From NCBI GenBank assembly GCA_016932165.1, contig JAFGDK010000089.1, positions 1 through 64,000 of the forward strand: a DNA stretch of 64,000 nucleotides, in the 5' to 3' direction. The position numbers were made by a program, and so were the translations under genes. The notes beneath the pieces are model-generated. The model worked only from the letters and a program-made list of their open reading frames with translations. It ran no database searches and had not been told where the DNA came from. Source of the DNA: Anaerolineales bacterium. Lineage in GTDB: Bacteria > Chloroflexota > Anaerolineae > Anaerolineales > UBA11579. Shown here piece after piece: positions 45,529 to 47,647 of the stretch; position 1 is the stretch's first letter; every line of letters starts with the position of its first letter.

Positions 45529-45550
45529 TTGTTTATACAATTGCCAGCAA

Positions 45551-45600
45551 GAAACTATCAAGAATCTATAAAAATCTAACAAAATCTACATTTACCTCAC
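45551..45600. repeat. Tandem 10-bp direct repeats (AAAATCTANN), candidate operator array of the PucC-like/MerR-like operon
   Basis: gaaactatca / agaatctata / aaaatctaac / aaaatctaca / tttacctcac in exact 10-bp register; 48 bp upstream of the ATG. Confidence 0.65.
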
Positions 45601-45647
45601 CTAACTTATCCAGTATAGTTTGGTTCATCTAAATCATAGGAGTCAGG

Positions 45648-46955
45648 ATGACCATCAAACGCATTCAACTTGGCCTGATCCACGTAGCAGTGGCGATCTC
45701 GCTGGTGCCGTTCAACAGCACCCTTAACCGGGTGATGATCAAAGAATTGGCCCTCTCCAGCCTGCTGGTGGCAGCGCTGGTGTCGCTTCCTTATCTGTTT
45801 TCCCCGATACAAATCGCCATCGGCGCATTCTCTGATAAACACCCGGTCTTTGGCTACAAACGCTCTGCCTATATCCTGGCCGGATTGCTGTTATGTGTTG
45901 GCGGGTTGATGGCTGCTCCCCACATCGCCTATCTGATTTTGGAGGATCGTCTGCTGGGGATTGCACTCGGTGTACTCGTTTTCGGCGCCTGGGGAATGGG
46001 CTACAACCTGGCCTCGGTCTCTTATTTTTCTCTGGCGACTGAAGTCTCTGGTGAAAAAGGCCGCTCCCGCACAATTGCCGTGATGTTTTTCATGATGATC
46101 GTCGGCATCATCCTGACCTCAATCTCCTTGAGTCAGATGCTGGAAACTTATACCCCCGAAACACTCCAGGGCGCCTTCCGGATGGTCGGTTATGTCGCCT
46201 TCGGATTGGGGATCCTCGGCCTGGCCGGCGTGGAAAAGCGCAGCACACCTTCCCAAACTGATCAAGCCGAAACGCTCTCCTGGGGAGAGATCTTTAAAAC
46301 GCTCTCCAGCAATAAACAGGTCATCCGCTTCTTCTGGTACCTGCTCCTGCTGCTGACCGCCATCTTAGGACAGGATATCCTGCTGGAGCCCTACGGGGCT
46401 GAGGCATTCGGGCTCTCCGTGCAGGCGACCACCCGCATCACGGCTATCTGGGGTGTATTCTTTCTGATCTCACTCTCACTGGGCGCGGCATTGGAGCGCC
46501 AGGTACCCAAAATCGTCCAGGCCCGTATCGGGGCGTACACCGGGATCGCAGCCTTCTTGCTTATTGTTGCCAGCAGCGTTGTGGGATCGGTGTGGTTGTT
46601 TTACACCGGGGTGGTGCTGTTGGGCTTAGCGACTGGCCTGTCAACTGTCTCTAATCTTTCCCTGATGCTGGATATGACCACGGTCGGCAGTGTCGGGTTG
46701 TTCATCGGGGCTTGGGGGATGGCCAGCGCCCTGGCCCGTCTGACAGGCAACCTGCTCAGCGGGGCGATCCGGGAGAGTTTCATCCCCCTGCTGCAAAGCA
46801 GCGTCGGCGGCTATAATGTTGTCTTCATCACTGAAATCCTTATCTTGATCGTATCATTGCTGATCCTGCGCGGCGTGGATGTGCAAATCTTTCAGAAAGA
46901 AAGCGAATCATCACTTTCTTACCTGGAGCGCGCCGCCATCTCAAACGAGGGGTAG
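45648..46955 (+). CDS. BCD-family (PucC-like) MFS transporter
   Basis: VPFNSTLNRVMIKELALSSLLVAALVSLPYLFSPIQIAIGAFSDKHPVFGYKRSAYILAG matches the PucC/bacteriochlorophyll delivery pattern. Confidence 0.88.
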   Translation: MTIKRIQLGLIHVAVAISLVPFNSTLNRVMIKELALSSLLVAALVSLPYLFSPIQIAIGAFSDKHPVFGYKRSAYILAGLLLCVGGLMAAPHIAYLILEDRLLGIALGVLVFGAWGMGYNLASVSYFSLATEVSGEKGRSRTIAVMFFMMIVGIILTSISLSQMLETYTPETLQGAFRMVGYVAFGLGILGLAGVEKRSTPSQTDQAETLSWGEIFKTLSSNKQVIRFFWYLLLLLTAILGQDILLEPYGAEAFGLSVQATTRITAIWGVFFLISLSLGAALERQVPKIVQARIGAYTGIAAFLLIVASSVVGSVWLFYTGVVLLGLATGLSTVSNLSLMLDMTTVGSVGLFIGAWGMASALARLTGNLLSGAIRESFIPLLQSSVGGYNVVFITEILILIVSLLILRGVDVQIFQKESESSLSYLERAAISNEG

Positions 46956-46958
46956 GAT

Positions 46959-47576
46959 ATGCCTGGTAACTGGCTTACACTGAAAGATGTTTCTGAACTG
47001 CTCGGAATTCACCCCAGCACGGTTCGCAACTGGGCAGACCAGGGCGTGCTCCCAGTCCACCGCACCCAGGGCGGCCACCGGCGGTTCTTGCGCGCTGAGT
47101 TGGATCTTTGGATGCAGTCCCAACGAGTTAACCGCCAGGAAAAATCGGAGGGGATGATCCAAAACGCACTCAGCTATGCCCGCTTCCAGATCTCGGAGGC
47201 CCATCTGGAAGGACAAAGCTGGTACCAGAAAATTGACCAGGCGGGGCGGGCCTCCTACCGCCGCAGCGGGCGCACCCTGGTGCAGGGGCTGATCCGCGCT
47301 CAGGCGCTGGACGAGAAAGCCGCGGCGGCCGAAGCCCGGGTGGTGGGGGTCGATTACGCCAACAACGGCCGCCGCTTTGGCCTCACCTTGCTGGAAGCTG
47401 TGCAGGCATTTTTATTTTTCCGCAAAGTGATGCAGGAAGCCGCCTACCATGCCTATGAATCAGCAGCCATCCAGTCCCCATACGCCTGGGGAGATATGTT
47501 CCGGGATATCAACCGCTACACCGACCGGATCCTGCTTACCATCATTGAGACTTATGAAGCCTATCAAAGACAGTAG
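46959..47576 (+). CDS. MerR/BldC-like HTH regulator with C-terminal alpha-helical domain
   Basis: LTLKDVSELLGIHPSTVRNWADQGVLPVHRTQGGHRRFLRAELDLWMQ, then a non-MerR C-terminal helical region (EAVQAFLFFRKVMQEAAYHAYES); 3 nt after the transporter stop. Confidence 0.88.
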   Translation: MPGNWLTLKDVSELLGIHPSTVRNWADQGVLPVHRTQGGHRRFLRAELDLWMQSQRVNRQEKSEGMIQNALSYARFQISEAHLEGQSWYQKIDQAGRASYRRSGRTLVQGLIRAQALDEKAAAAEARVVGVDYANNGRRFGLTLLEAVQAFLFFRKVMQEAAYHAYESAAIQSPYAWGDMFRDINRYTDRILLTIIETYEAYQRQ

Positions 47577-47603: not shown

Positions 47604-47647
47604 GTAGCGGAGGGTTCTCCGAGCTTTGCGCGGGAACCCTCCGCTAC
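47604..47647. repeat. REP-like palindrome
   Basis: GTAGCGGAGGGTTC t CCG agctttgcg CGG GAACCCTCCGCTAC; 14-bp perfect outer stem. Confidence 0.75.

Follow-up and report, generated by a model that had tools for sequence, protein, structure and literature searches.

The B12-dependent regulator CarH binds tandem 11-bp repeats of the form nnnnTnnACAn, one of which includes or overlaps the -35 element, and represses transcription (PMC9304148). BldC binds 9-bp AATTnnnnC direct repeats head to tail, with Leu11, Phe21, Val23, Trp31, Ile40, Thr42, Leu43 and Gly44 forming the interface between neighbouring subunits (PMC5859096). The locus compared with these systems here lies in a 64,000-nucleotide stretch of DNA (the window) from a bacterium of the order Anaerolineales, phylum Chloroflexota, and consists of a repeat array and a two-gene operon. 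The first gene encodes a transporter of the PucC family, the role of which in bacteriochlorophyll handling is known from phototrophs. The second encodes a regulator with a C-terminal domain predicted to be globin-like. To our knowledge the described non-heme sensors with folds of this kind, the N-terminal domain of RsbR and the pXO1-118 and pXO2-61 proteins, are not fused to a MerR-like helix-turn-helix (HTH). Comparison of the locus with its relatives leads us to propose, with a probability of about two in three, that the array is the operator of an autorepressor and that this regulator, responsive to heme or another tetrapyrrole, controls a candidate tetrapyrrole transporter.

The predicted operator occupies positions 45550 to 45590 on the forward strand and was delineated by direct reading and comparison with orthologues. 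It comprises four units, each an A-tract with a CTA core: AGAAACTAT (45550-45558, core at 45555), AGAATCTAT (45561-45569, core at 45566), AAAATCTAA (45571-45579, core at 45576) and AAAATCTAC (45581-45589, core at 45586). The spacing of the cores is 11-10-10 bp. The units run into a -35-like TTTACC (45591-45596), a weak element that is TTGAC- in most orthologues, and a 17-nt spacer separates this from a -10-like TATAGT (45614-45619). The gene for the PucC/BCD-family MFS transporter, a protein of 435 amino acids, follows on the same strand (45648 to 46955). The Pfam PUCC profile spans residues 25-411 of this protein (E 5e-79) and scores 266.5 bits against a cut-off of 21. The gene for the MerR/BldC-like regulator, of 205 amino acids, starts 3 nt later (46959 to 47576, forward strand; Pfam HTH_17, E 1e-16). 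An earlier note, made from the letters of this DNA alone, had described units that end at TTTACC, 17 bp before TATAGT, and a BCD-family transporter gene trailed after 3 nt by that of a regulator, and was right on each of these points. The repeat array it reported is also real, although the spacing is not strictly the 10 bp then proposed. Just 3′ of the operon there is a long, perfect and strong hairpin without a T run (47604 to 47647, arms 47604-47617 and 47634-47647, no strand assigned; direct reading), which may mark where the transcript ends or may be a repeat element.

Among 61 relatives, 37 have a homologue of the regulator, as do 175 of 400 genomes searched in the order. Upstream DNA was read for 100 of these homologues and 95 upstream regions were scored for an anchor motif, the unit next to the -35 element, using a weighted threshold of 16 out of 18. 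The motif reaches at least this score in 51 of the 95 regions and in 42 of the 56 with PucC, compared to 0.4% of shuffled sequences. The orthologue consensus is TCTAnTAAAA(A/T)TCTACnTAAATCTACATTGAC. In 63 promoters, which derive from related genomes of many genera and families of the order and are not independent, the other TCTA cores are placed 10 bp (81%), 21 bp (40%) and 32 bp (29%) upstream of the anchor core, with the remaining offsets mostly at 0-8% and at most 18%. Since the cores peak at these distances the phase is helical, with 10 or 11 bp per unit. A strict 10-bp register is ruled out by the 11-10-10 spacing in the window and by some spacings of 9 or 12 bp in other loci (L036, L039 and L038). 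The -35 and -10 elements are 16-18 bp apart in 61 of the same 63 promoters, the -35 elements are mostly good (TTGAC-) and their distance from the array is conserved in the order. Phylogenetic footprinting of the phase had been named beforehand as a check; the phase is conserved and orthologous operons carry the repeats.

In the order, 59 of the 100 loci that were read have PucC encoded directly upstream of the regulator. The array motif also directly precedes regulator genes that have no PucC (L043, L101, L102, L106, L112, L113, L122, L123 and L130) and is absent upstream of 15 PucC genes that have no regulator beside them, where the best score is 14/18 or less. The array therefore goes with the regulator. 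A search of 151 genomes allowing at most one mismatch to the pattern located 25 sites in 25 genomes, one per genome, the control giving 1 match, and a comparison of coordinates with the homologue searches places 22 of the 25 upstream of the regulator gene. The remaining three comprise one at a contig end, one that is apparently unrelated and one before a membrane-protein gene. In this last case (L231, genome G147) the site is near 990 and the open reading frame at 1211-2071, an arrangement that would give the gene its own copy of the operator in trans. The gene belongs to a family of membrane proteins without a Pfam match, which in the order is encoded beside the regulator in 17 of the 100 loci, for instance at L033, L034, L059-L063 and L122.

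A two-unit pattern taken from the window site, AAATCTANNNAAATCTACATT, matches once in the 64-kb window against an expectation of 0.03. The orthologue-derived pattern AAWTCTANNNAAATCTACATTG, with up to three mismatches, gives 1 match in the 3.13-Mb assembly and the reversed control pattern none; no second array site was found in the assembly at this tolerance. The genome-wide scan put forward in the earlier note thus returns the window site as unique. A large regulon in this genome is unsupported, given the single site. Degenerate patterns were employed because a sequence-only covariance model of 52 orthologous promoters holds too little information for genome scans. This model produced no match in its own genome, with 150 of 443 candidates scored; it ranked the window site first, yet only at E 0.52. 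A fixed 22-mer consensus at 3 mismatches missed its own site, and scoring the first loci for simple periodicity gave no discrimination.

Could the repeats be no more than AT-rich promoter sequence, acting as a UP element or through curvature of the A-tracts, with no regulator dedicated to them? A phase of about 10.5 bp would indeed allow A-tracts placed before a -35 element to serve as a UP element. Conservation extends beyond the A-tracts to the CTA cores, however, there is essentially one site per genome and it is at the operon of the regulator, PucC genes without the regulator are also without the array, and outside the order units are found inverted near the start codon. We regard this explanation as very improbable. 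The conserved phase, the linkage to the regulator gene and the unique site together support local autoregulation, most likely by repression, and the comparison of sequences thereby lends support to the idea, already in the earlier note, of an autoregulated transporter-regulator operon with an array-type operator.

That note also saw the same geometry at positions 1-60 of the window, where TTTTGTAACC repeats on the minus strand are followed by TTGACA. The agreement is confined to spacing. The unit is a different one, and a pattern for the element has 20 matches in the window genome, corresponding to about a dozen copies or more, with no matches in 60 relatives. The copies that were read have unrelated genes around them and often continue into TTGACA and a GCACTG...CAGTGC hairpin. 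Two copies are at contig ends. This array is a dispersed multi-copy repeat, apparently noncoding; its dispersal, its distinct unit, its unrelated flanks and its absence from the 60 relatives rule it out as a sister operator.

The N-terminal winged-HTH domain of the regulator (amino acids 5-56, encoded at 46971 to 47126 on the forward strand) was assigned on the basis of profile and structure matches. In addition to HTH_17, the Pfam models MerR and MerR_1 score above cut-off. The closest PDB entries are those of BldC (6AMK/6AMA), next is the cobalamin-binding regulator 8JBS, with CarH further off. Within the regulator family the BldC wing residues His46, Arg47 and Arg48 and the interface residues Trp31, Thr42 and Gly44 are invariant, and hydrophobic residues occupy the positions of Phe21, Val23 and Leu11. 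Such similarities would be expected of a true member of the BldC family that forms BldC-type head-to-tail filaments. Nevertheless HTH_BldC, the nearest NCBIfam model, is matched with 49.3 bits against a cut-off of 77. The position of the key hydrophobic Leu43 is mostly polar, with Gln the commonest residue, that of Ile40 is mostly His, and the contacts made by Lys26 and by Arg30, which reads a C-G pair, are not kept. The repeat spacing is 10 or 11 bp as opposed to 9 bp. Membership of the BldC family is, in our judgement, distinctly unlikely. The BldC-like HTH of the earlier note is borne out by the structural ranking, but not by the family cut-off, by the four residues just mentioned or by the repeat unit and spacing. 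The regulator family is distributed across the phylum: with a threshold of E 1e-20, 147 of 301 genomes have it, nearly always as one copy, and its nearest named members are from metagenome-assembled genomes of Anaerolineales and other Chloroflexota.

In sampled loci outside the order the unit is inverted (GTAGATTT) and there is a clear 10-bp peak: the mean pair score is 18.3 at 10 bp against 14.5 in control upstream regions, with other spacings at 15.7-16.7. The inverted units are mostly near the start codon and in L182, L186, L191 and L200 they come after the putative -10 element. Is the regulator then an activator of the operon, acting from the array in a class II-like fashion and touching the -35 element? 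The position of the array immediately upstream of the weak TTTACC of the window, and the distance to the -35 element conserved in the order, would suit such a role. Against this, most orthologues have a good -35 element and spacers of 16-18 bp, and the arrays of the loci sampled outside the order are inverted, most of them close to the start codon. An operator found both before and after the promoter, and in both orientations, is better explained by blocking of the polymerase than by positional activation, and normal spacers combined with inverted units near the start codon favour repression. We therefore consider activation unlikely, with the weak -35 element of the window genome leaving some room for it there. 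In one family of the order (L082, L083, L090, L092 and L097) inverted GTAGATTT units also overlap the -10 element, so that these promoters have arrays on both sides.

The C-terminal domain (amino acids 68-205, encoded at 47160 to 47573 on the forward strand) was assigned from a structure model and fold matches. A Pfam search with these 138 residues of the window protein gave no significant match. Modelled alone the domain has a pLDDT of 91.4, and Foldseek aligns it with the RsbR sensor 3ZTA (TM 0.67) and with 3PMD and 3PMC (TM 0.63 and 0.61, respectively), ahead of globins and globin-coupled sensors. All of these matches have E-values of 0.09 or worse, none reaching 0.001, so the assignment rests on topology and TM-scores. 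Pfam searches of 57 family members matched Rsbr_N weakly in three homologues and listed no cobalamin-binding (B12) domain among their matches. In the family alignment no histidine of the domain is conserved at 80% or above, which makes classical heme ligation unlikely. The model is that of a predicted globin-like sensor.

What such a domain may sense is suggested by gene context. Forty loci were sampled outside the order, and in 22 of them the regulator has heme or siroheme genes as neighbours, nearly always within about 300 nt downstream; these include hemA, hemC, hemD, hemB, hemE, hemQ and the genes for precorrin-2 dehydrogenase, the siroheme decarboxylase AhbAB and an AhbC/NirJ-type radical SAM protein. 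The exceptions in placement are L176, with heme genes upstream, and L174, with ferrochelatase on the opposite strand. No heme gene was detected near the regulator in the other 18 of the 40. Within the order hemA directly follows the regulator in L066-L069, while hemA-C-D-B in genome G033 and ferrochelatase in G005 are divergent from the pucC-regulator operon; most operons in the order have PucC or a membrane protein without a Pfam match rather than heme genes. No heme gene adjoins the operon in the window itself, and we infer its heme link from family membership. The window genome has a second PucC (L225, G000:C125:11000-14800) between an Amino_oxidase-family gene, which probably encodes protoporphyrinogen oxidase, and ferrochelatase; no array operator is present upstream of this paralogue. 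Among 61 relatives the regulator co-occurs with PucC (p = 0.001), with hemA (p = 0.027) and with any of three heme genes (p = 0.035), values derived from hand-transcribed presence lists in which several genomes are incomplete, that of the window (86%) included. The association with heme genes is modest.

A different signal, such as a lipid, a fatty acid or a redox or oxygen-linked cue, would leave the array as an autoregulatory operator and make the heme genes one of several targets. It would agree with the nearest folds being those of the non-heme sensors 3PMD and 3PMC and the RsbR sensor 3ZTA, with the lack of a conserved histidine, with the predominance in the order of operons that carry PucC or the membrane protein, and with the 18 loci where no heme gene was detected nearby. 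It accounts less well for a regulator that recurrently, and in many families, adjoins genes from several distinct heme and siroheme routes, namely hemA, C, D, B, E and Q and the precorrin-2 dehydrogenase and AhbAB/radical SAM genes, and we consider it rather unlikely. The literature searched for heme regulators of the MerR type, for heme regulons of Chloroflexi and for heme transport by PucC yielded no relevant paper, which is not proof of absence.

Ferrochelatase is present while hemA and hemB were not detected in 13 of 61 genomes, namely that of the window (G000) and those of 12 relatives, all of which are incomplete or draft and were searched for hemA, hemB and ferrochelatase but not for hemC-hemE. 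This suggests partial heme pathways in these organisms, and ferrochelatase without hemA or hemB leans towards tetrapyrrole import. The signal could either strengthen or relieve repression; a co-repressor would go well with biosynthesis genes and an importer, an inducer with an exporter. It is possible, though we advance this tentatively, that the signal of a Chloroflexota regulator family present throughout the phylum, with a MerR-like HTH that binds direct repeats and a histidine-free globin-like domain, is a tetrapyrrole of the heme pathway, and that Anaerolineales without the early heme genes use such a regulator to control a PucC-type importer of porphyrin or heme.

In the autorepressor circuit that we favour, several regulator subunits would bind side by side on the helically phased direct repeats, 10 or 11 bp apart, and the one at the promoter end would cover the -35 element at its upstream edge. 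The bound regulator would keep RNA polymerase off a promoter with the ordinary spacing of 16-18 bp. Since the operon would yield more regulator as well as the PucC-family transporter, a local negative feedback loop would result. The globin-like domain would alter binding in response to a signal, for which heme or another tetrapyrrole of its pathway is the likeliest candidate, and the transporter would most likely move that tetrapyrrole or a precursor, in one direction or the other.

For the Chloroflexota, a large and little-studied phylum, the locus provides a candidate regulator of the heme pathway together with a prediction of where it binds, and PucC-like transporters become linked to heme genes. 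For the 13 of 61 genomes with ferrochelatase and no hemA or hemB detected, the operon is a testable candidate for porphyrin acquisition. The association with the heme pathway shifts the likely function beyond what was read from the DNA of the window by itself, and the regulator suggests a further type of sensor among proteins that read direct-repeat arrays.

How does the locus compare with described systems? The transporter gene is a clear member of the PucC/BCD family of MFS proteins and differs in its linkage, in the order, to a candidate heme-pathway regulator. The non-heme globin-like sensors, the N-terminal domain of RsbR and pXO1-118/pXO2-61, share with the modelled C-terminal domain an all-helical fold, TM-scores of 0.61-0.67 and the weak Rsbr_N matches, at a sequence identity of only 9-12%. 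Classical MerR promoters have a spacer of 19-20 bp, in contrast to the 17 bp in the window and the 16-18 bp in 61 of 63 promoters. BldC, from Streptomyces, provides the closest HTH in the PDB and likewise uses direct repeats, which combine an AT-rich part with a C. It is, however, a winged HTH alone, of 68 amino acids, whereas the window regulator has 205 and a separate C-terminal domain, and its 9-bp AATTnnnnC sites differ from units of an A-tract and TCTA placed 10 or 11 bp apart. With the B12-dependent CarH/LitR regulators of Thermus, Bacillus and Myxococcales the common features are a MerR-type HTH joined to a C-terminal sensor and tandem direct repeats at the -35 element. The last unit of the window array, read as AAAATCTACAT (45581-45591), fits the CarH consensus nnnnTnnACAn exactly and abuts the -35 element, whereas the other units are degenerate; the units are 10 or 11 bp apart where CarH has a uniform 11, and no cobalamin domain was found, the C-terminal domain being predicted as globin-like instead. 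The operator thus appears to resemble the CarH type more than the BldC type. The regulator probably works in the manner of these array-reading proteins and, by the features compared here, belongs to neither family.
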